Positions 1,485-23,679 of a stretch of 38,736 bases of DNA are shown here, piece after piece. Under the pieces are notes generated by a model. The model was given only the letters and a program-made list of their open reading frames with translations. It was not told where the DNA came from and ran no database searches. The position numbers were made by a program, and so were the translations under genes. The first letter of the stretch is position 1. Each line of letters starts with the position of its first letter. Source of the DNA: Clostridia bacterium (GTDB lineage: Bacteria; Bacillota; Clostridia; TANB77; SIG350); contig JAQVRJ010000003.1 of NCBI GenBank assembly GCA_028701115.1, positions 1 to 38,736 of the forward strand, read 5' to 3'.

Positions 1485-4400
1485 CTATTTTTCATATATG
1501 ATAACATTAGAATCGCCAATAATATTTTTAATTTCACGTAAATTTTCTTTAGTAATATTAATATTATTTAACATCTTTTCTTCTTTACTTCGTAATAAGA
1601 CATTACAATTACCCTCTTCTACACTATTATTATTCAATATATTATTTACTTTGTCAAGCTGATCATTATTTAAATGTGAAAGCTTCATTTCTACAATATA
1701 ACCTTTTTTATTCAAATCTAGTATAGTCATTGTATTTACAATGATTTTAGGCACTTCATCTATTCTAACAGATAATTTACCTTTAATTTTAACAATATTA
1801 TCTATTTGAAGAATATTACTGTAATTCATATATACAAGTGGAAAAACAACTAATTCAACAATACCATATAAATCTTCTATAGATATAAAAGCCATTAACT
1901 GATTATTTTTTGTATTTAACATTTTTTTACCAACAATTATACCTGCATAATCTACTTCTTTTCCATCAACAACTTTTGTATTCTTTTCCTTCTCTTCTGA
2001 TTCTTCATATTCTAATATATCTAAACTAGTAATATTGGTTTGCTTTTCTATTTCAGCTCTATAATCGTCCAAAGGATGTCCAGATACGTATATACCTAAC
2101 ATTTCTTTTTCATTAGCTAACATTTCTTTTTTATTCTCATTCGCAATTTCATTATATGAATATTCTTCTTTTTTATCTTCTACATTCAGCATTGAAAACA
2201 TTGAAACTTGACCTTCAATATTTTTCTTTTCATCATTTGCAATACCATCTAATATATTTTCAAATGATGCAAGTAATGTTGCTCTGTTTTTGCCAAGCTC
2301 ATTAAACACACCTGCTTTTATTAAACTTTCTACACATTTCTTATTAACATTTTCTGAAGAAGTTCTCTTGCAAAAATCAATAAAATCTAAATATTTGCCA
2401 TTTTTTTCTCTTTCTGCAACAATAGCATCTACAGCACTTTCGCCTACATTTTTTATTGAATACATTCCAAACATAATATCATTATCATTAGCAATGAATT
2501 TTCCCATACTCAAATTTATACTTGGTTTTAATACTTCGATATTATTTTTTTTACAGTCATTAATATATGTAGATATTTTAACTTGATTACCTAAAAAGCT
2601 ATTTAATAATGCAGCCATATATTCAACATAATAATATCTTTTTAGATATGCTGTTTGATAAGCAACAACTGCATAACATGCTGCATGAGATTTATTAAAG
2701 GCATAATTTGCAAATTCAGCCATTTCATCAAATATCTTATTTGCAGATTTTTCATCAACATTATTCTTCATTGCCCCCGCAACAAATTTTTCTCTTTTTT
2801 TTACCATTACATCAATTTTCTTTTTTCCCATTGCTCTACGAACTAAATCTGCTTCACCTAAAGAATAATTAGCTAATTCTCTAAATATTTGCATAACCTG
2901 TTCTTGATAAACCATACACCCATATGTTACTTTCAAAATTGGTGCTAAACTTGGATGTGTATATTCAATATTATTGGGATGCAATTTATTTTTTATATAT
3001 CTTGGTATTTGATCCATTGGACCTGGTCTATATAACGCAACACCAGCTATTAAATCTTCTAAACTATCTGGTCTCAATTCTTTCATAAACTGTTTCATGC
3101 CATCACTTTCAAATTGAAACACACCTTCTGTTTTTCCCTCTGCCCAAAGTTTTAATACTTCTGGATCGTTCATATTCTTATCAAAAACCACATCAATATT
3201 TCTATTATGTTTAGCATTATCTATTGCATCTTGAATTACTGTTAATGTTCTTAATCCTAAAAAGTCCATTTTTAACAATCCTAATTCTTCAAGTATTGTC
3301 ATTGTATACTGTGTAACAACACCTGAATCAGATTTATATAATGGTACATATGAATCTACTGGATTCTTTGTAATTACTACACCAGCTGCATGTGTTGAAG
3401 CATGTCTTGGTAATCCTTCTAATACTTTTGAAATATCTATTACTTTCTTAATTTCTGCATCATTCTCATATAAAGCTTTTATTTCTGGATTCATTTCTAA
3501 TGCTTCATTTAATGATGTATTCATTGGTATCATCTTTGATAAACTATCTGTTTTGGCATAATCTACATTTAATACTCTTGCCACATCCTTTACAACAGCT
3601 CTTGAAGCTAATGTTCCAAATGTTATAATCTGAGCAACTCTATCTTGTCCATATTTTCTTCCAACATAATCAATAACCTCTTGCCTTCTTTCATAACAAA
3701 AATCTATATCAAAATCTGGCATACTTATTCTTTCTGGATTTAAAAATCTTTCGAACAATAATTTATATTTTAATGGATCTATATTAGTAATCTCCATACA
3801 ATATGCAGCTAAACTTCCTGCTCCGGATCCTCTACCAGGACCTACAATAATATTATTATCTTTAGCATAACGAATAAAATCCCAAACGATTAAAAAATAA
3901 TCTGTATACCCCATTTTTTGTATTATACTTAATTCATAATCTAATCTTTCTTGTATCTCTTTAGAAATATTTTCATATCTTTTATTTAGTCCATCTTGAC
4001 ACAATTTTATTAAATATTCTTCATGTGTAAATCCATCAGGCACTTTATAATCTGGCAATATTGTATGACCAAAATCAAATTCCACATTACATTTATCTGC
4101 AATTTCTAATGTATTTTCTAATGCTTCTGGTATATTAGAGAAATTTTCAAACATCTCATCTTGTGATTTAACAAAAAACTCATCTGTACCAAATTTCATT
4201 CTATCTTCGTCAATCATCTTTTTACCAGTTTGAATACATAGCAAAACTTCATGAGAATATGCATCTTCACGATTTAAATAATGTGCATCATTTGTTGCAA
4301 TAACTTTCACACCAAACTCATTAGCTAATTTTAATAACCCTTGATTTGCTTTTACTTGTTCAGATAATCCATTATGTTGAAGCTCTATATAGTAATCATC

Positions 4401-4901
4401 TTTACCAAATATATCTATATACTCTTGTACAGCACTTCTTGCTTTATTCATATTATTATTTAATATAGCGGTACTAACTTCACCTGCTAAACAAGCACTT
4501 GTACATATTAATCCTTTTGAATATTTTTTTAATATTTCTTTATCTATTCTTGGTTTATAATAATAACCTTCTGTAAAAGATAAAGATACTAACTTTATTA
4601 AATTTTGATATCCTTCATTATTTTTAGCAAGCAGAATTAAATGAGAATAAGTATTATCCACATTTGCTTCTTTATCTAATCTACTTCTTGGTGCTACATA
4701 TACCTCACAACCAATAATAGGTTTTATATTATTTGCTTTACATTCTTTATAAAATTCTACAGCTCCATACATAACACCATGATCAGTAATTGCTACTGCA
4801 GGCATTCCTAAATCCTTTACCTTTTTTACTAAATCTTTTATTCTATTAGCTCCATCCAAAAGACTATACTCTGTATGAACATGTAAGTGAACAAAATTCA
4901 T
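1485..4901 (-). CDS. dnaE: DNA polymerase III subunit alpha
   Basis: PHP domain start MNFVHLHVHTEYSLLDGANRI, GPGRGSGAGSLAAYCM, PDFDIDFCYERR, FAHRAGP-like RPGPMDQIPRYI. Start moved inward from the ORF-track start to the ATG at 4901, preceded by GAGGTGAAAG. Confidence 0.95.
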   Translation of the reverse strand: MNFVHLHVHTEYSLLDGANRIKDLVKKVKDLGMPAVAITDHGVMYGAVEFYKECKANNIKPIIGCEVYVAPRSRLDKEANVDNTYSHLILLAKNNEGYQNLIKLVSLSFTEGYYYKPRIDKEILKKYSKGLICTSACLAGEVSTAILNNNMNKARSAVQEYIDIFGKDDYYIELQHNGLSEQVKANQGLLKLANEFGVKVIATNDAHYLNREDAYSHEVLLCIQTGKKMIDEDRMKFGTDEFFVKSQDEMFENFSNIPEALENTLEIADKCNVEFDFGHTILPDYKVPDGFTHEEYLIKLCQDGLNKRYENISKEIQERLDYELSIIQKMGYTDYFLIVWDFIRYAKDNNIIVGPGRGSGAGSLAAYCMEITNIDPLKYKLLFERFLNPERISMPDFDIDFCYERRQEVIDYVGRKYGQDRVAQIITFGTLASRAVVKDVARVLNVDYAKTDSLSKMIPMNTSLNEALEMNPEIKALYENDAEIKKVIDISKVLEGLPRHASTHAAGVVITKNPVDSYVPLYKSDSGVVTQYTMTILEELGLLKMDFLGLRTLTVIQDAIDNAKHNRNIDVVFDKNMNDPEVLKLWAEGKTEGVFQFESDGMKQFMKELRPDSLEDLIAGVALYRPGPMDQIPRYIKNKLHPNNIEYTHPSLAPILKVTYGCMVYQEQVMQIFRELANYSLGEADLVRRAMGKKKIDVMVKKREKFVAGAMKNNVDEKSANKIFDEMAEFANYAFNKSHAACYAVVAYQTAYLKRYYYVEYMAALLNSFLGNQVKISTYINDCKKNNIEVLKPSINLSMGKFIANDNDIMFGMYSIKNVGESAVDAIVAEREKNGKYLDFIDFCKRTSSENVNKKCVESLIKAGVFNELGKNRATLLASFENILDGIANDEKKNIEGQVSMFSMLNVEDKKEEYSYNEIANENKKEMLANEKEMLGIYVSGHPLDDYRAEIEKQTNITSLDILEYEESEEKEKNTKVVDGKEVDYAGIIVGKKMLNTKNNQLMAFISIEDLYGIVELVVFPLVYMNYSNILQIDNIVKIKGKLSVRIDEVPKIIVNTMTILDLNKKGYIVEMKLSHLNNDQLDKVNNILNNNSVEEGNCNVLLRSKEEKMLNNINITKENLREIKNIIGDSNVIIYEK

Positions 4902-5159
4902 GTCTTTCACCTCGCATATATTATACTGTATATTAAGCAAAAAAAAAAGAAAAAAAACTAATTTCTTAATTTTTCTTTTATATATCATTTAATGCAATTT
5001 AATAGGATTAATCAGATCTTAAAATAACATTAAAAGCATGTAAAAGTATTACAGTATATAGCTTTAGCCATTTAATAACTAAAGCTTTTATGATTCATTT
5101 ATATATTTTTTTCAATAAATACTTTACATAATATTAAATAGGATTTAAAAAGTACATAA

Positions 5160-5465
5160 TTATTCATTATGCACTAGTTTTGCAATAACTTGTAATGCCT
5201 CTGCACATGTCTCAGAACTAATATTACTTATATTCCCATAAGTAAAATTATATTCATCATTTACCCAGTTTGCAAAATGTAAATCGAACTTGTTAGGATC
5301 AGCAGTAAAACCTACAGATGCCATTAACTTGTTTTTAAACATAATGCAAACTTGCTTTTCGAAAACACTTATGTATTCGATTTTGGGTTTGATAACTTCT
5401 AATTTAAAGTCATTAACAATACGTGAATGATTAGTTTGACATTCATTACCACAATATGCAATCAT
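5160..5465 (-). CDS. Hypothetical protein, 101 aa
   Basis: Intact ORF in an otherwise open intergenic region; no family recognised. Confidence 0.55.
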   Translation of the reverse strand: MIAYCGNECQTNHSRIVNDFKLEVIKPKIEYISVFEKQVCIMFKNKLMASVGFTADPNKFDLHFANWVNDEYNFTYGNISNISSETCAEALQVIAKLVHNE

Positions 5466-5571
5466 GATATATATATTATACCATTTTTAAAACAAAAATA
5501 CAATATAATAATTATATAATTGTCTCAAAATTAAATGAAAATAATATTAAAATGTTATACCTTTAAAAACC

Positions 5572-6348
5572 TTATTTTGACATTTCTGCCATAATGATAC
5601 TTGCCGCATTACTTACATTTAAAGATTCAACAGATTCATTCATTGGAATTACTATACTTTCATTAGAACAAGCTAAAACTTCATCAGATATACCGTTAGC
5701 TTCATTACCAATAATCAATATCCTCTTTATTGCATATTTAGTATCATAAATACTTTTTGCATTTATTAACGTAGATGCATATATTGTATAATCTTTTTTC
5801 TTGTCCATTAACCAATCATATCCATTATCTTCTAATAATATTATATTAATACTAAAAATATTACCCATCGTTGCTCTTAATACTTTTGAATTATATATAT
5901 CTGCACAACCTTTATTTAGTACTACTGTTTTAAAATTAAATGCTAATGCACTTCTAATTATTGTTCCAACATTTCCCGGATCTTGAATATTATCCAAAAA
6001 AATAATACTATCTGTTAATTGTTTTTCTTCTTTATTAATTTCTAATATGGATAAGATACCTTGTGGATTTTTCGTATCTGAAATGCTTTCAAATACATTA
6101 TCTGTTACATATATAACTATATCTTCATTTTTAGATATATATGAATCAATTACACCTGTATCAATCGAAATACTTTTTAACATATCATCACAAATAACTA
6201 TTGATACAATTTTTTGATTAGATAATATAGCTTCTTCTAATATTTTTACACCTTCAATAATATATTGTTTTAATTCTATTCTATACTTTTTATCATTTAA
6301 TTTTTTTATTTCTTTTATTTTATCATTACTGCTACTAGATATAATCAT
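5572..6348 (-). CDS. TrmH/SpoU-family RNA 2'-O-methyltransferase
   Basis: IFLDNIQDPGNVGTIIRSALAF, LIIGNEANGIS, SIVIPMNESVESLNVSNAASIIM motifs; start placed at the ATG after AGGAGGATATT rather than the ORF-track start at 6399. Confidence 0.9.
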   Translation of the reverse strand: MIISSSSNDKIKEIKKLNDKKYRIELKQYIIEGVKILEEAILSNQKIVSIVICDDMLKSISIDTGVIDSYISKNEDIVIYVTDNVFESISDTKNPQGILSILEINKEEKQLTDSIIFLDNIQDPGNVGTIIRSALAFNFKTVVLNKGCADIYNSKVLRATMGNIFSINIILLEDNGYDWLMDKKKDYTIYASTLINAKSIYDTKYAIKRILIIGNEANGISDEVLACSNESIVIPMNESVESLNVSNAASIIMAEMSK

Positions 6349-6389
6349 AATATCCTCCTCAATATATATAAGTATAGCATATAAATAAA

Positions 6390-6414
6390 AACAGAACAAG
6401 CTTATTGTTCTGTT
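6390..6414 (-). terminator. Rho-independent terminator downstream of the HAD hydrolase gene
   Basis: Perfect 10-bp stem AACAGAACAA/TTGTTCTGTT, 5-nt loop, followed by TTT on the minus strand. Confidence 0.75.
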
Positions 6415-6420
6415 TAGTAA

Positions 6421-7146
6421 TCACAATTTGTTTATCAATTCTTTCAAACTATTAACAACCATAATCGGCTCATATTGTTTAGGTAATGCTTCATCATTAC
6501 GATTAAACCAACAAGAATCTATACGAGCATTCATTCCTCCTTGGACGTCTGACTTCAAAGAATCTCCTATTATTAGCAATTTTTCATTATTATGAAAATT
6601 CAAATATTCTTTTAACTCTTCAAAATACTCTTTACTAGGTTTTGTTACTGTTTGTCTTGTCATATCTGCAGAAAAAATATTATCTACAAAATCTAAACAA
6701 TCTATCTTTTTTAATTTTGATTTTACAGCTGAATTTGCTCCATTTGTTGCTATTACTAATTTGTATTTATCATGCAAATAATTTAATACTTCATAAGCAC
6801 CATCTATTGGAACAACAATTTCCTTTAAACTTGCTAAAAACAGGTCATTTATTTCAAAAGCTTTTTCTAATGTTATTTTATCATTAAAATACATTTTATA
6901 TCTTAAGCTCACAACATAATTAATAAAAAGTTCTTGTGGACTTTGATATTCTTTTGGAACAATTATTCTTTTTTCATAAAAATCTATCCAAAATTTATCA
7001 TCCAAATCACACCACTTTTTAAAGCCTTCTTCAGAATATTTTTCGCCAACTAATTCAACCATTTTAGTATATGCATGGCGAACATTTTCTAAATTATCTA
7101 TCAATGTATCATCTAAATCAAATAAAATCATTTCGTACTTACTCAT
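6421..7146 (-). CDS. HAD-superfamily hydrolase (YjjG-like)
   Basis: ILFDLDDTLIDN, VIATNGANS, KPSKEYFEELKE, LIIGDSLKSDVQGGMNA motifs. Confidence 0.85.
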   Translation of the reverse strand: MSKYEMILFDLDDTLIDNLENVRHAYTKMVELVGEKYSEEGFKKWCDLDDKFWIDFYEKRIIVPKEYQSPQELFINYVVSLRYKMYFNDKITLEKAFEINDLFLASLKEIVVPIDGAYEVLNYLHDKYKLVIATNGANSAVKSKLKKIDCLDFVDNIFSADMTRQTVTKPSKEYFEELKEYLNFHNNEKLLIIGDSLKSDVQGGMNARIDSCWFNRNDEALPKQYEPIMVVNSLKELINKL

Positions 7147-7244
7147 AATTAACCTCTTTACTAATTTATTATATAATAATTCTATTAATTTGTAAAGATT
7201 TATATAATTTCTATCCGACTATATAATTCTAATAAAATTATTTT

Positions 7245-7596
7245 TGGTGGAGATGAGGAGAATCGAACTCCTGTCCAATAACCCTTCCATACAAAATTCT
7301 CCGAGTGCAGTTTATTTTTTTATTTCATATATTACAGTTAAATAAACAAAAATGTATTATACTAGTTTCTGGTTTACCCTCTATTATAGAAACATCTAAT
7401 AGATTCCTTGTCACTAAGTTGACACCTATTAAAGTCCGTGACTTACAATAACAGATGTGCTACGCTATTAGGCAGCAAGTGCAAAACTTTTATTATTATT
7501 TGCGTTTATATTTATTTATCGTTGTTTAAAGTGGACTACGATCACCACTACTCGCTATTCATATTTCTGAATCACTGTCGAAACCTTTACATCCCC
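7245..7596 (-). ncRNA. ssrA: Transfer-messenger RNA (tmRNA)
   Basis: 5' end GGGGATGTAAAGGTTTCGACAG, 3' end GGACAGGAGTTCGATTCTCCTCATCTCCACCA. Tag ORF on minus, 7503 to 7468: GCA AAT AAT AAT AAA AGT TTT GCA CTT GCT GCC TAA = ANNNKSFALAA, followed by a second stop (TAG). Confidence 0.97.
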
Positions 7597-7606
7597 GTAT
7601 ATATAT

Positions 7607-7635
7607 ATTATACAATTATTATGTGCAAATTACAA
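7607..7635 (-). promoter_or_regulatory. Promoter of ssrA
   Basis: TTGTAA - 17 nt - TATAAT on the minus strand, upstream of the tmRNA 5' end. Confidence 0.6.
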
Positions 7636-7689
7636 GAATTTGTCACATTATTATTTAAAAACAAATATAACTATTTTAAAAAAATAAAA

Positions 7690-7713
7690 AATAAAAGGTT
7701 TTAACCTTTTATT
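7690..7713 (-). terminator. Terminator at the end of the nrdD-nrdG-FTR cluster
   Basis: Perfect 11-bp stem AATAAAAGGTT/AACCTTTTATT with T-rich tail on minus; overlaps the stop codon of the FTR-like gene. Confidence 0.8.
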
Positions 7714-7888
7714 CTTTTGGTATGTATAGTTTACAACAACAATTTTTATCATCTAAAAATTTTGTACATGGACATAATGTTGTATCGTCTTCTTTTATTT
7801 GACATGGACAATGTCCTTCTTTTCTAAATATACCTTCAATTATTTTTGCAACATGTTCCTTATCTGGATTTAATCTAAAACCTTGCAT
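7709..7888 (-). CDS. Ferredoxin:thioredoxin reductase catalytic-subunit-like protein
   Basis: MQGFRLNPDKEHVAKIIEGIFRKEGHCPCQ...LCPCTKF...CCCKL: CPC-x-CPC-x-CxC pattern of FTR catalytic chains. Start placed at the internal ATG (GTAGGTGAGTGT ATG). Confidence 0.8.
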   Translation of the reverse strand: MQGFRLNPDKEHVAKIIEGIFRKEGHCPCQIKEDDTTLCPCTKFLDDKNCCCKLYIPKE

Positions 7889-7896
7889 ACACTCAC

Positions 7897-8565
7897 CTAC
7901 TTTACTTTTAAATTTGTATAAATAATTTTCCCACATTCTTCTTTTATTTCTACTAGCTCTTCTTGTGTATATTGTTCTTTAACCGTAGCTGAACCAACAT
8001 ATTGATATTGTTGTATAGTATAATCTTGAACACCTATTCCTTTTAAAAGTTTAGCTATTTTAATACAATCTTCTTTCTTTACTTCAGGTGGAAACATTGT
8101 TGTTCTTACTTGAAATTCTTTATTATTATCCACAGCTAATTTAATTGTTTTAATTATATCATCTACATTTACTTCTACATTGCATATACTACTATATTTT
8201 TCTTTGCTCGTTTTAAAATCTATTCCTAAAAAAGATATCTCTTCAATATTTTTTTCTACTACATCAGGATTACTTCCGTTAGTATGTATTCCAACTTTAA
8301 ATCCTTCCATATATAACTTTTGAACTATATCTGTAAACTCAGGACTACAAGTACATTCTCCACCACTTAAAATAATATGCTGTATAAAATCTTTTCTTTC
8401 AATTAGTTTTGGTAATATCTCTTTATCAAAATCTATTGGTTGCATTTTAACTAATTCTCTATTATAGCAAAATTTACATTCAAAATTACATGTTCCAAAA
8501 AACAATACAGAACACACATGATTAGGGCAATCTACCATACTAGTCCAAATTACTTGCGTAATCAT
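7897..8565 (-). CDS. nrdG: Anaerobic ribonucleoside-triphosphate reductase activating protein (radical SAM)
   Basis: CNFECKFCYN radical-SAM CxxxCxxC motif, LSGGECTCSPEF; directly downstream of nrdD and a glutaredoxin-like gene. Confidence 0.88.
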   Translation of the reverse strand: MITQVIWTSMVDCPNHVCSVLFFGTCNFECKFCYNRELVKMQPIDFDKEILPKLIERKDFIQHIILSGGECTCSPEFTDIVQKLYMEGFKVGIHTNGSNPDVVEKNIEEISFLGIDFKTSKEKYSSICNVEVNVDDIIKTIKLAVDNNKEFQVRTTMFPPEVKKEDCIKIAKLLKGIGVQDYTIQQYQYVGSATVKEQYTQEELVEIKEECGKIIYTNLKVK

Positions 8566-16881: not shown

Positions 16882-16973
16882 TGGCGGAGAAGGAGGGATT
16901 CGAACCCTCGCTACCATTACTGGTACTAACAGTTTAGCAAACTGTCCCCTTCAACCTGCTTGGGTACTTCTCC
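16882..16973 (-). tRNA. tRNA-Ser (GCT)
   Basis: GGAGAAGTACCCAAGCAGG...CAGTTTGCTAAACTG...GGTTCGAATCCC...TTCTCCGCCA; long variable arm, anticodon GCT, encoded CCA. Confidence 0.96.
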
Positions 16974-16981
16974 AAAAAAAA

Positions 16982-17072
16982 TGGCGGAGAGGGTGAGATT
17001 CGAACTCACGGTAAGCTCACACCTACGCCGGTTTTCAAGACCGGTGCCTTAAACCAGCTCGACCACCTCTCC
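16982..17072 (-). tRNA. tRNA-Ser (TGA)
   Basis: GGAGAGGTGGTCGAGCTGG...CGGTCTTGAAAACCG...GAGTTCGAATCTC...CTCTCCGCCA; long variable arm, anticodon TGA. Confidence 0.96.
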
Positions 17073-17242: not shown

Positions 17243-19240
17243 CTATATACCTAAATATCTATAATAATCATTATCAAGTATTAGTCTTGAATATTTGTAT
17301 TTGTTATATATTTGGTTAGATATTTGCTTTGTATAATTTTCTGGTATATCTAAACCTTCAACAGGTATAAATGTTTTTGTTTTTGCATTATATCTTCCTA
17401 AATCAGTTATAAAGCTTCTATTCGAATATATAACAAGCGAATTTGTATCAGATAATATATCTCTACCCATTAATAATCTTGAATCGAACTCTACACCAAA
17501 TAAGTTTAATATTGTTGGTACCATATCTAAACTTGAACCATATTTTTCAACTTTTATAGGTTCTATCATTGAACCAGACCATAATAAGAATGGCATATGA
17601 TATTTTTCAAAATTATCATCTCTCTCATATGTAGATAATTCATTTATTTCATCTAACGTTAATCCATAAGGATAATGATCTGCTGATAACATAATTACAG
17701 TATCATCCAATTTACCAGCTATTTCTAATCTTGTAATTAATTCTCCAATAGCTTTATCTAATTCAACTTGTGTTGCTAAATAACATCTTGCAGTTTCTGA
17801 ATATGGTAAATCCTTTACAGTATCCCAATTCCAACTTACCATCATATTACCAGTTCTATTATAATTCAAATGGCCACTAACAGTCATATAATATGTAACA
17901 AAATGATCATTATTAATGTAATCATCTGTTGTTGCTTTTATCATTTCATAATCACTATTAGGCCAATATTTTGTAACCATTCTTTCTTCAAGGCCATTAC
18001 CTACTGCAAGATATGAGTTATATCCCATTGCATTAATATATAAATCCCTTCCATAATACTTAGCTGTATGATTATGATATGCATTTGAAGAATAACCCAA
18101 TTTTTCAAATATATTTGCATATGATAACGGCATATAATGATTTTCCAATCTTTTTAAACTCCAGACACCTTCTTTAGGTATTAAAGATGTATCAGTAATG
18201 TATTCTCCATCAGCTGTACTTACTGGAAATACAGGTGTATAAAAATTTTCAAATTGGAATCCTTCTTTATATAGTTTATATAAATTAGGTGTTATATCCT
18301 CTCTAATTGCCATACTACTAAAAGCTTCACATACAAATACTATTAAATTTTTATCTTTAAACATTCCTGTATATTCATTCTTTTTAGATGGTTCTTGATT
18401 CATAAAATATTCATGCATACCAATTATATCTTTATTTGTTTCATTAGCTATTAATGATTCAAAATCAATATTCATAATATTGTATTCTACTTCTTTTTCT
18501 GGTGGTATCTCATTCTGCGGATCTTTTGTTTCTTCTCCAGCAATATCTTTTTCTTCAAATCCAAATACCAATCTTTGAAAATCCAATCTCATTTCTGAAC
18601 ATAACCCAAATTTCTGTATTGTTAATATGGGAGCATGTGTATTATAATATAAATTCTTTGCAGAATATACATCATTTGAAAATGAAATATTTACACAAAT
18701 TACTACTATCAATTGAAATACTATAAAGAAAACTATCTTCTTTATTCTACTTTTACTCTTTTGCTTATTTAAAACAATCTTCCTTTTAGCTAATAGAATA
18801 AACCATAAAATCAAAGGTATAAATAATAATATTATATTAAACCATTGGTTAAGAATCTTTTCAAATATTGTTTCAACAAATTGCATTACTTGCCCAGCAC
18901 CATTAAATATAGAATAAAATGATAGAAACGAATCATATATACTATAATAAACCACCTGTGCCGAGAATATAAAACATAATATAAATAAAATAGTAGTTGC
19001 TACTATTTTATTTGCTTTTTCTTTTCCTATTCCTGATAATAAATAAATAACTGTTGCTAGGGGAATAGAAAATGCAATTTTCCAAATAATGCCTTCAATA
19101 CTTTGAAAAAACATAATAGAAAATACCGTTTCTAAATAAATTACGGCTAATAAAATATATAAAAATCCTGATATTCTCTTAATGCCCTTTACTTCTTTTT
19201 CTTCATTAATATTATTTTTCAATACACTATTTATTCTCAT
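17243..19240 (-). CDS. LTA synthase/sulfatase-superfamily membrane protein
   Basis: N-terminal transmembrane helices then KNLIVFVCEAFSSMAI, STADGEYITDTSL, VIMLSADHYPYGL, YHMPFLLWSGSM. Confidence 0.85.
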   Translation of the reverse strand: MRINSVLKNNINEEKEVKGIKRISGFLYILLAVIYLETVFSIMFFQSIEGIIWKIAFSIPLATVIYLLSGIGKEKANKIVATTILFILCFIFSAQVVYYSIYDSFLSFYSIFNGAGQVMQFVETIFEKILNQWFNIILLFIPLILWFILLAKRKIVLNKQKSKSRIKKIVFFIVFQLIVVICVNISFSNDVYSAKNLYYNTHAPILTIQKFGLCSEMRLDFQRLVFGFEEKDIAGEETKDPQNEIPPEKEVEYNIMNIDFESLIANETNKDIIGMHEYFMNQEPSKKNEYTGMFKDKNLIVFVCEAFSSMAIREDITPNLYKLYKEGFQFENFYTPVFPVSTADGEYITDTSLIPKEGVWSLKRLENHYMPLSYANIFEKLGYSSNAYHNHTAKYYGRDLYINAMGYNSYLAVGNGLEERMVTKYWPNSDYEMIKATTDDYINNDHFVTYYMTVSGHLNYNRTGNMMVSWNWDTVKDLPYSETARCYLATQVELDKAIGELITRLEIAGKLDDTVIMLSADHYPYGLTLDEINELSTYERDDNFEKYHMPFLLWSGSMIEPIKVEKYGSSLDMVPTILNLFGVEFDSRLLMGRDILSDTNSLVIYSNRSFITDLGRYNAKTKTFIPVEGLDIPENYTKQISNQIYNKYKYSRLILDNDYYRYLGI

Positions 19241-20007
19241 GCCATATTACTCTTTTCTTTTTTTTCTATTATTATATCTCCAAATCTTTCTTTTTGATCA
19301 ATAGATATTCTTTTTAGTTTTGCTAATTCTAATAAACTTAAAAATGACGTTACAACTTCAAGTTTTGTTTCTTGTTTATCTGTAAATAACTCATTAAATA
19401 CGAATCTTGGATTTTTCATTAACTCTTTTATTATTTCTTTTGCTTTTGATCTAACTGTTACACTTTCATATTCTGCTAATTTAGTAATATTTTCATAATT
19501 TAAATTTTGCAAATTAGCATTTCTTTTTAACATATTATAATATGTTACAGGAATTACTTCTTTATCATACTGTTTTTCTATTTTTTGCTTTGGTAATTCA
19601 ACTTTATCTGGCTGTTTAGAATATCTATTTGAATATATTGTATATCTATCTCTCAGTTCTACAGAAAAATCTTTATATAACTTATATATCAAAATTCTCT
19701 TAGCTAACTCTTCTTCTGTTAAACCTTCTTCATCTTCATCAGGTTCTAGCATTGGCAATAATTTTCTAGATTTTAAATATATTAAAGTTGCCGCCATTAC
19801 TAAAAATTCGCTAGCTATCTCTAAATCTAATTTTTCCATTGCTTGCATATACTCAATATATTGTTCAATAACTTCATCAAGTTTAATATTAAATACATCC
19901 ATTTTATTTTTATCTATTAAGTAGCATAATAAATCAAATGGCCCTTCGAAATTATCTATTTTAATTAAATATTCTTGTTTTTTTATTTCTTCCACTGTAT
20001 CCTCCAC
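19237..20007 (-). CDS. scpA: Segregation and condensation protein A
   Basis: YLIKIDNFEGPFDLLCYLIDKNKMDVFNI, ASEFLVMAATLIYLKSRKLLP; C-terminal VVTSFLSLLELAKLKRI. Confidence 0.93.
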   Translation of the reverse strand: MEDTVEEIKKQEYLIKIDNFEGPFDLLCYLIDKNKMDVFNIKLDEVIEQYIEYMQAMEKLDLEIASEFLVMAATLIYLKSRKLLPMLEPDEDEEGLTEEELAKRILIYKLYKDFSVELRDRYTIYSNRYSKQPDKVELPKQKIEKQYDKEVIPVTYYNMLKRNANLQNLNYENITKLAEYESVTVRSKAKEIIKELMKNPRFVFNELFTDKQETKLEVVTSFLSLLELAKLKRISIDQKERFGDIIIEKKEKSNMA

Positions 20008-20119: not shown

Positions 20120-21241
20120 TTAAAGTGCTCCCCATAGAACCGAACGGAACGATATGCTATCATATGCTCCACCATCGTCACTGTTGAAAGCGAACAAACT
20201 GGCAACCAAACAATCATTGTAACCACGTCTGAAGAAAGAACTGCCCGAAGAAATAAAGCGGGAGCGGCCACTATGCCATGATGTGCTATCTGATGAGCTT
20301 GATGATGTCTCGAATACTGCATCTCCATATCTATCTCCATATGATGAATATCCTTCATAATATTTTGCATTTGCACTTCCAAATGTATTTTCTACATTTG
20401 AATTTAATCCTGCTGCTACATATTCCCATAATCCTCCATTCATATCAAATATTCCATAATTATTTCCTGTTGTACTTTCTTCTGCAATACCACCTGTTAT
20501 ATAATCATCAGACCATGATGTTTGTACTCCATTTCTTCCATATTTACTTTGTGCTAAATATGCTACAGCTCCCCATTCACTATTTTTAATTAAATGACTA
20601 TTTAATCCCAAATTTATACTAAGTGAATTTGTAAAACAATTCGCTATTGATATATTTTTCCAACTACTTGCTCCTGGTACTGATACTGCTTTTGTTCCAT
20701 TATTACTCATTTCATATTTTGCTACCCATATTCCTGATAACATTTTTTCTGTTCCGTCGTTATATCTAAATGCTGGATGTATATTAAAATTTTCTTGTCC
20801 TAAACTAGAATTAATTATTATTGTTCCCAACGCTGTCTCTTGTGTTATTCCTTTCATAAATTCTATATGTATTGGACTTGATGTATTTGTATGATACCCT
20901 GTTCCTATACTATATGCATATCTTGGTATCCATACCCAATAGCTTCCATCTGCTGTTACTGCATTTGCCCACTTGCTTGTTGTATTATCTGTTGCAAAAC
21001 TTTCTGTACTAGCTATATAATCATACCAATCATTATATACAAAAACTGTATTTAATACTCCTTCATTATACTGTCTTATTTCATTTCCATTTGTATCCCA
21101 ATATACTGCTGTCATTCCTGTATCTAACTTTGGACTATTCACTCCTTTGGTTGCATCATATTGGCCATCATATAGATTTACAATCGTTGGTATTTCTGTT
21201 GCTGGAGATTCTTCTTGTTCTGATGTTAATGTTTGATCATA
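20120..21241 (-). CDS. FGE/SUMF1 (C-type-lectin-fold)-like extracellular module; in frame with the upstream prepilin-like ORF
   Basis: SYWVWIPRYAYSI, HPAFRYNDGTEKMLSGIWVAKYEMS, NNYGIFDMNGGLWEYV, C-terminal SFRSVLWGAL. The first residue in the ORF track (21142) is a GTG without a well-spaced SD; the frame is open back to the TAA at 21242-21244. Confidence 0.75.
   Translation of the reverse strand, partial: YDQTLTSEQEESPATEIPTIVNLYDGQYDATKGVNSPKLDTGMTAVYWDTNGNEIRQYNEGVLNTVFVYNDWYDYIASTESFATDNTTSKWANAVTADGSYWVWIPRYAYSIGTGYHTNTSSPIHIEFMKGITQETALGTIIINSSLGQENFNIHPAFRYNDGTEKMLSGIWVAKYEMSNNGTKAVSVPGASSWKNISIANCFTNSLSINLGLNSHLIKNSEWGAVAYLAQSKYGRNGVQTSWSDDYITGGIAEESTTGNNYGIFDMNGGLWEYVAAGLNSNVENTFGSANAKYYEGYSSYGDRYGDAVFETSSSSSDSTSWHSGRSRFISSGSSFFRRGYNDCLVASLFAFNSDDGGAYDSISFRSVLWGAL
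20121..20283 (-). other. Candidate DGR variable region (VR) at the 3' end of the FGE/lectin module
   Basis: Abrupt GC rise: hand count 75/160 (~47%) over ~20121-20280 against 10/60 (~17%) for 20581-20640 in the same gene. Many NNC/NNT codons for S/G/R/D/N/Y/F/H/C; ends ISFRSVLWGAL-stop. Confidence 0.6.
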
Positions 21242-21676
21242 TTATATATTCCCTTCATATTCAAATCCTTGATAATATACTTTCCCTAATGTTGTTACAT
21301 AATACTTTAATACTTCTGTTTCGCTTATTGATAATTCATTTTTTAAACTATTATCTATTGCTAATACATCTTTTCCTGCTATTTGTAATACCGATTCTGG
21401 TAATGCATCATTATTTTCTGCATTTGCTTCTGTATATCCTTGTATTACTCCTACCCATTTATATTTTTCTAAATCTCCTTCTGTTGTTGCATATTTCGCC
21501 ATATTATTTAACATTTTTATATTTATTGCTTCTTGTACTGTTGATATGTTATTTAAAAAGACTGCTAGCTGTGCATTTTGTGGTGTGTTTACTCCTGTTA
21601 TTACAACTGCTGCTGTTAATATTATTAATACTATTATTGTTATTATTAACGCTACTAAACTTATTCCTTTTTTCAT
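21242..21676 (-). CDS. Type IV prepilin-like protein (N-terminal module)
   Basis: MKKGISLVALIITIIVLIILTAAVVITGV: short basic leader, G, then hydrophobic helix; SD AAAGGGGAGAAAAAGAT. Ends at a TAA followed by open frame into the FGE-like module. Confidence 0.8.
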   Translation of the reverse strand: MKKGISLVALIITIIVLIILTAAVVITGVNTPQNAQLAVFLNNISTVQEAINIKMLNNMAKYATTEGDLEKYKWVGVIQGYTEANAENNDALPESVLQIAGKDVLAIDNSLKNELSISETEVLKYYVTTLGKVYYQGFEYEGNI

Positions 21677-21729: not shown

Positions 21730-23679
21730 TTATAAGCTTTCTAATTCTTTAATTTTATCTCTTATTCTTGCAGCTTCTTCAAAATCCAAATTTTTAGCAC
21801 AAAGTACCATTTTATCTGTTAAATCATTTATTATTTCTTCTATACTCTTATCTTTATCTTCAGAATATTGTCCTTTTTCTTCCTCAACAATCAATGTTTT
21901 AATAGTATCCCTAATATCTTTTTTAATAGTCATAGGTACAATATTATTCTTCTCATTATATTCTTTTTGTATTTGTCTTCTTCTTTTTGTTTCTCTTATA
22001 GCTTTTTCCATTGATTCTGTTAATTCATCTGCATACATTATTACTTTGCCATTAACATTTCTTGCTGCTCTACCAATTGTTTGTATTAATGATCTTTCAG
22101 AACGTAAAAATCCTTCTTTATCTGCATCAAGTATAGCAACTAATGACACTTCTGGTAAATCCAAACCTTCTCTTAAAAGATTTATTCCAACTAGAACATC
22201 TATATCCCCTGTTCTTAATTGTTTTATAATCTCTAATCTGTCTAAAGTTTTTACTTCTGAATGCATGTAATTTACTTTAATATCTATATTCTTCATATAT
22301 GCTGTTAAATCTTCAGCCATCTTTTTAGTTAATGTTGTAACTAAGACTCTTTCTCCTCTATCTATTACTTCTTTAATTTGAATTAACAAGTCATCTATTT
22401 GATTTATAGCAGGTTTTACAATAATTTCTGGATCAATCAATCCAGTAGGTCTAATAATCTGTTCAACTATTCCTGATGAATTTTCTTTCTCATAATCTGA
22501 TGGTGTAGCACTTACAAAAACAATTTGATTTATTTTTTGCTCCCACTCTGCAAATGTTAAAGGTCTATTATCATAAGCACAAGGTAATCTAAACCCATAT
22601 TCAACTAAAGATTCTTTACGTGCTCTATCCCCATTATACATAGCTCTTATTTGTGGTACTGTTACATGTGATTCATCAACCATTATTAGCATATCCTTTG
22701 GAAAATAATCCATTAAAGTATATGGTGGTGAACCTTTTTTTCTTCCACTTATAATTCTTGAATAATTCTCTATTCCTTGACAAAATCCTGTTTCAACTAA
22801 CATTTCTATATCGAAGTTAGTTCTTTGCTCTATTCTTTGCGCTTCAACCAACTTATTATTCTTTTTAAAATAATCTATTTGTTCTTCTAATTCTTTTTCA
22901 ATTTCTTTAATTGCATTATCCATTTTATCTGTTGTTGTAACATAATGAGATTTAGGAAAAACAATTAAATATTCTTTACTACCTAATATTTTACCAGTTA
23001 TAGGATGAACAACATTTATCTTTTCAATTTCATCACCGAAAAATTCAATACGAATTACACTATCACTAGAATGAGATAAAAAGATATCTACAGTATCGCC
23101 TTTCACACGGAAACATCCACGTTTAAAATCTATATCATTTCTTGTATATTGCATTTCTACTAATCTATGAATTACTTCTTCTCTTGATTTATCCATTCCA
23201 GGTCTTATAGATAAAACCATATTATCATAATCTACTGGATCACCTAAACCATAAATACAAGATACACTCGCTACAATTATTACATCGTCTCTTTCATATA
23301 ATGATGCTGTTGCTGAATGTCTTAATTGATCTATTTCATCATTTATAGATGAATCTTTTTCAATAAATGTATCAGTCTTAGCTATATATGCTTCTGGTTG
23401 GTAATAATCATAATATGATACAAAATATTCAACAGCGTTTTCTGGAAAAAACTCTTTGAATTCTGCATACAATTGACCTGCTAATGTTTTATTATGTGCA
23501 ATAACTAATGTAGGTTTATTTACTTTTTCTATTACATTTGCCATAGTGAATGTTTTACCTGAACCTGTTACACCTAATAATGTTTGAAACTTTTCTCCAT
23601 TATTTATTCCATCAACAAGTTTTTCTATTGCTTGAGGTTGATCTCCACTTGGCACATATTCTGAATGTAACTTAAACAT
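21730..23679 (-). CDS. uvrB: Excinuclease ABC subunit B
   Basis: [73 protein letters not shown]-terminal UVR motif. Confidence 0.97.

Follow-up and report, generated by a model that had tools for sequence, protein, structure and literature searches.

The 3′ end of a gene on the minus strand of the window (the whole stretch of 38,736 nt that was analysed, from a Clostridia bacterium) was very probably written by a diversity-generating retroelement (DGR), as its codon usage and the template repeats (TRs) of its relatives suggest. The joint reading, in which this variable region (VR) has a DGR origin and is also an orphan or fossil, is held with less confidence but is still rather likely. DGRs are retroelements that randomise the binding end of surface proteins. 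The features of the gene are as follows:

20123–20266, minus strand: VR of probable DGR origin, codons RSRF... to WGAL (NNY codon bias; alignment with genuine TRs; homologs with TR/VR pairs)
20120–20152, minus strand: possible IMH-like invariant 3′ end of the VR (TCGTTCCGTTCGGTTCTATGGGGAGCACTTTAA), suggested by the SFRxVL ending common to TRs
20120–21142, minus strand: predicted C-type-lectin portion of the target gene, of FGE type (TaqVP, 5VF4, by profile and predicted fold)
21242–21244, minus strand: in-frame TAA that splits the gene and has no equivalent in the intact paralogs
21242–21676, minus strand: prepilin-like N-terminal part (MKKGISLVALIITIIVLIILTAAVVITG...), with a weak GspG match and the same start in intact paralogs and relatives

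The window gene and its variable end

The open reading frame (ORF) at 20120–21142 comprises the gene body and the VR, and its C-terminal peptide, ...SWHSGRSRFISSGSSFFRRGYNDCLVASLFAFNSDDGGAYDSISFRSVLWGAL, is exactly the one quoted at the gene end in an earlier, sequence-only reading of this DNA. The stop-to-stop frame of the FGE part extends to 21241, and the TAA at 21242–21244 separates the FGE/VR ORF from a prepilin-like start that lies upstream in the same frame. The earlier reading had overlooked this stop codon and the five paralogs of the gene. Interrupted in this way, the window copy would be a pseudogene, unless the TAA is an assembly error. The gene is located between a ScpA-like gene (19237–20007) and a UvrB-like gene (21730–23679), both recognised from sequence, and is therefore taken to be chromosomal. 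A tmRNA (tag ANNNKSFALAA) and a tRNA-Ser pair (gct, tga), found in the window at 7245–7596 and 16882–17072, are ordinary.

The GC content is 0.47 in the last 165 nt of the gene versus 0.30 in the preceding 600 nt. The jump to ∼47% reported for the last ∼50 codons was thus reproduced, whereas the ∼17–25% given for the rest of the gene proved too low. In the VR, 37 of 47 codons end in C or T and only 4 end in A, compared with 107 and 155 of the 288 body codons, respectively, in agreement with the abundance of NNC/NNT codons noted previously. At the VR end, GCACTTTAA resembles other VRs, and TRs carry GCACTTCGAYACA. The IMH-like reading of 20120–20152 is only suggestive, because CACTT is found near the stop codon in only 12 of 94 targets.

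Fold and domains

When the family profile was compared with the PDB, the only match at E < 0.01 was 5VF4 (E 1e-4), which is TaqVP, the variable protein of a Thermus aquaticus prophage DGR (PMC6328139). The AlphaFold model of the window protein has a pLDDT of 85.5, and a Foldseek search with this model placed three TaqVP chains on top (E 4e-8 to 7e-8), followed by formylglycine-generating enzyme (FGE). As the earlier reading proposed, the predicted protein has a C-type-lectin fold of the FGE subtype and a 3′-terminal VR; this assignment is well supported by relatives that have genuine TRs and by the profile and fold matches. The Pfam FGE-sulfatase model (PF03781) scored 14.6 bits against the window protein, below its cut-off of 23.3, and matched 17 of 31 family members at E ≤ 0.01. 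The family thus appears to be fold kin of formylglycine-generating enzyme, which does not imply that its members are enzymes.

The prepilin-like part gave a weak match to the GspG model (E 6.7e-4, below cut-off), and a class III prepilin-type signal, common to the relatives, is visible in its sequence. Export by a pilin-type route is plausible, since two PF00437 secretion/pilus ATPase matches above cut-off are present in the same genome. Intact proteins would use their pilin part to display the variable face on the cell surface, where it would bind ligands.

Genuine templates in relatives

A scan of ∼85,000 species for relatives yielded 78 loci, mostly from Clostridia and Bacilli metagenome-assembled genomes (MAGs), and nearly all of these loci have this hypervariable C-terminus. 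Most of about 90 relatives have a hypervariable C-terminus, usually with a GC jump, so the tail of the window gene is not a chance patch. The loci of the relatives were searched for TRs with an adenine-biased repeat screen. In L059, a TR lies 355 nt downstream of the VR, and their best stretch has mismatches at adenines only. Two viral contigs (L102/L103) contain a target, a TR and a reverse transcriptase (RT). In G044, an Erysipelotrichaceae MAG, one TR (L190) matches the neighbouring VR and two VRs on other contigs (L084 and L086); these remote VRs have 15 and 19 adenine mismatches to the TR and 1 and 0 mismatches at about 103 non-adenine positions. A similar TR/VR pattern, including targets on other contigs, was observed in G015. 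Five dispersed targets of G003, the nearest relative outside the genus, correspond to a single TR, from which they differ at 15 to 22 adenines and at 6 to 14 of about 106 non-adenine positions. Judged from these repeats, targeting in trans across contigs evidently occurs in G044, G015 and G003.

Several candidates were rejected as TRs. The screen produced many false matches, for example in G020 and G005, which were set aside because they lie outside coding VRs, in DNA that is A-rich. The L026 match is an inverted repeat in AT-rich DNA, and the similarity of the L174 and L178:2177 matches stems from gene duplication. G002, from the same family as the window species, contains a complete DGR with a pilin-like target, whose VR is of another sequence type, and its TR was discarded as a template for the window VR.

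Other arrangements were also noted among these loci. L042 contains, around minus-free offset 11405 and 350 nt downstream of the VR of an FGE target, a truncated TR-like stretch that is perhaps a broken template. L230 (G243:C41, minus strand, offsets 3289–7975) is a DGR with about eight TR-like repeats behind one long target; the repeats all end in the IMH*-like GCACTTCGATACAC, the target VR ends in GCACTTTTCC, and the repeat at offset 5838 has lost most of its asparagine codons, as if the template itself had been adenine-mutagenised. In G023 (TR L162; VRs L054, L070 and L071) and G043 (TR L178; VRs L088, L082 and L095), non-adenine identity to the single TR of each genome is lost in a graded manner, with mismatches from about 5% to 34%, as if the VRs were of different ages.

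An inferred template retrieves a complete cassette

A template was inferred from the window and paralog VRs by setting their variable codons to AAC/AAT, and it was searched in 388 genomes of the order. The query matched 26 genomes, including that of the window species, at E ≤ 1e-6 with identity of up to 82%. Read in frame, most of the examined matches are asparagine-rich template repeats (e.g. NFVNSNNPFFNRGGNYNNDSNAGVFNFN). Among 20 fetched loci, 11 have a DGR-type RT and 7 have an Avd match. Since a query made of asparagine codons favours templates, weight is placed on the adjoining RT and Avd genes and on the matching fixed codons.

One of these loci, L219 (G407, same order), is a complete cassette that consists of a target with prepilin, FGE and VR parts, a TR, Avd, and an RT with an IGNYTSQ motif. 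Over 386 aligned columns, its target and the window protein share 36% identity. Of the 62 adenines in its TR, 32 are changed in its own VR, as are 6 of the 109 other bases. When the window VR was placed against the L219 TR in a protein-guided alignment, which was not tuned to adenines, mismatches were found at 69% of adenines and 24–44% of other bases. The adenine excess has an odds ratio of 4.0 (p = 1.6e-4) and is an indirect test, because TRs available for comparison come from other genera. The adenine-only differences between homologous VRs and genuine TRs bear out the earlier proposal that the segment originated from a DGR.

Six paralogs with unequal drift

The genome of the window species (G000) is a MAG of 908 kb in 70 contigs that is 96% complete. 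It contains five further, diverged copies of the window gene: one on contig C37, two in tandem on C52, one whole copy on C33, and one that is apparently split across the ends of C33 and C39, where the overlapping peptide is identical. The intact paralogs encode one continuous protein from the prepilin start through to the VR. Two of the six genes are interrupted: the C37 copy has a frameshift, and the window copy has the TAA. The six VRs share a pattern of variable residues between fixed ones and a terminal S-F-(R/H)-x-x-L-W-G.

In the closest pair, the window gene and C52a, the VRs differ at 35% of first and second codon positions and 21% of third positions, versus 14% and 20%, respectively, in the gene bodies. 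The excess at positions 1 and 2 in the VR, which may be an old DGR signal, is significant only in this one of 15 paralog pairs (p = 0.046, uncorrected); the lack of significance in the other pairs pointed to differences in age and not to one live template. As a reference for a live shared template, two VRs of G044 differ at 20 to 24% of first/second positions and 2% of third positions. The ordinary divergence of VR third positions in the window–C52a pair, which matches that of the body, indicates that these VRs have not been rewritten from a shared template since the genes separated. The number of third-base C in the VRs declines from 15 in the window copy, the least drifted of the six, through 11, 7, 6 and 3 to 2 in C33a, a gradation consistent with drift toward the AT-rich usage of the genome.

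Search for the DGR machinery

In G000, neither an RVT_1 reverse transcriptase nor an Avd (PF22296) was found at E ≤ 1, and the L219 RT had no counterpart at E ≤ 0.01. The 908 kb assembly also yielded no TR for the window VR, so the target gene has no template in its own genome as assembled. Its sister genome G001 (97% complete, and the only other genome of the genus) has FGE-VR genes and no DGR-type RT. The RTs of G001 were rejected as DGR RTs, one being of the group II intron type and the other of the AbiP2 type; the latter (G001:C134:28708-29262, L012) has its best match in the AbiP2 defence family (E 2e-177). Phage records contained no match to the VR or to the part of the gene used as a query, and no IMH-like pattern was found in viral contigs. 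The earlier proposal that the gene is targeted by a DGR elsewhere in the same genome is not supported by these results or by the third-position divergence of the paralog VRs. The absence of a TR and DGR RT from the complete genome had been named as one of two grounds for abandoning the DGR reading. Both are absent from the assembly, but with 96% completeness and 70 contigs a missing DGR contig is conceivable.

Origin and present state of the variable region

The preferred account is a former target that has outlived its retroelement. Reverse transcription of template repeat RNA, error-prone at adenines, would have produced a cDNA that took the place of the 3′ end of the gene, turning AAC/AAT template codons into NNC/NNT. 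In related species, TR/VR comparison shows that the DGR rewrites several scattered targets, both in cis and in trans. In the window species, the six VRs would have gone without refreshment from one template and drifted like the rest of the gene, and the DGR would have been lost. The window gene would most likely be a frozen, decaying former target, its copy broken by the in-frame stop. The fossil state is favoured because third-position drift is ordinary and two genes are interrupted, with the caveats that the 70-contig MAG may lack a DGR contig and that the paralogs may have had private TRs.

A live remote target, served in trans on some genes by a DGR (RT, Avd and one or several TRs) that is absent from the MAG or carried on an unbinned mobile element, is the main competing explanation, and we consider it unlikely without dismissing it. 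Trans targeting in G044, G015 and G003, the modest drift of the window VR with its 15 third-base C, and the 96% completeness of the MAG agree with it. The failure to find an RT, Avd or TR in the assembly, the equal lack of a DGR-type RT in the 97% complete sister genome, the third-position drift, and the in-frame stop in the window gene all speak against it. Evolution of the tail with no DGR, either as a fast-evolving ligand-binding face under diversifying selection or through gene conversion among paralogs as in pilin antigenic variation, appears highly improbable. Six paralogs, two in tandem pairs, and the third-position differences in most within-genome VR pairs would fit such processes, but the NNY codon bias and the GC jump would be left unexplained, and genuine TRs match homologous VRs with adenine-only differences. 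Still more remote is a horizontally inserted foreign GC-rich segment or an assembly chimera. The local GC contrast is sharp, as either would produce; however, the difference is confined to the last ∼50 codons, these can be aligned one by one with the codons of paralogs and relatives in which the same break is seen, and this break falls inside one conserved domain across many independent assemblies.

More tentatively still than the fossil reading itself, a lineage with a reduced genome might have lost its DGR and kept six frozen, once hypermutated pilin-lectins. If so, the extent to which the template signature has decayed (third-base C to T and loss of non-adenine identity) would serve as a clock for the last rewriting of each VR, and the intact copies may act as a fixed set of receptors. 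DGR targets can be recognised from codon signature and paralogs with neither template nor RT at hand, and the inferred template was good enough to retrieve real cassettes from related genomes. The largest DGR survey states that DGRs acting on remote targets are missed by it (PMC8144416). The present family numbers about 90 homologous hypervariable FGE proteins, many of them sharing a genome with others, in MAGs of Clostridia and Bacilli; families of this kind indicate that remote and former targets are undercounted.

Comparison with known systems

Remnant DGR targets are already known from Treponema denticola, which has remote FGE-type targets (the TvpA family) as well as target genes left behind in isolates with neither RT nor TR (PMC4891356). 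Less usual features of the window species are its small genome, the anchoring of the targets by a prepilin part and the gradient of age among the VRs. As in the window species, there are several remote FGE-type targets in T. denticola, and the VRs of its RT/TR-less leftovers differ from the TRs of other isolates mostly at adenines (PMC4891356). Unlike the window protein, which is prepilin-anchored and has its nearest TRs in other genera of the order, the T. denticola targets are lipoprotein-anchored and were compared with TRs of the same species. The DGR literature mentions target proteins with putative pilin structures (PMC6642488). TaqVP shares the FGE subtype of the C-type-lectin fold and a VR at the extreme C-terminus, but it belongs to a prophage DGR in which TR, Avd and RT are present, and it is not reported to have a prepilin anchor (PMC6328139). 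L219, with its prepilin start, FGE domain, VR and 36% identity, resembles the window gene; it differs in having a fresh VR with TR, Avd and RT directly downstream. The remote targets of G044 are FGE homologs of the window protein with VRs on contigs away from the TR, but these VRs are fresh and depart from the TR at no more than 1 of about 103 non-adenine positions.
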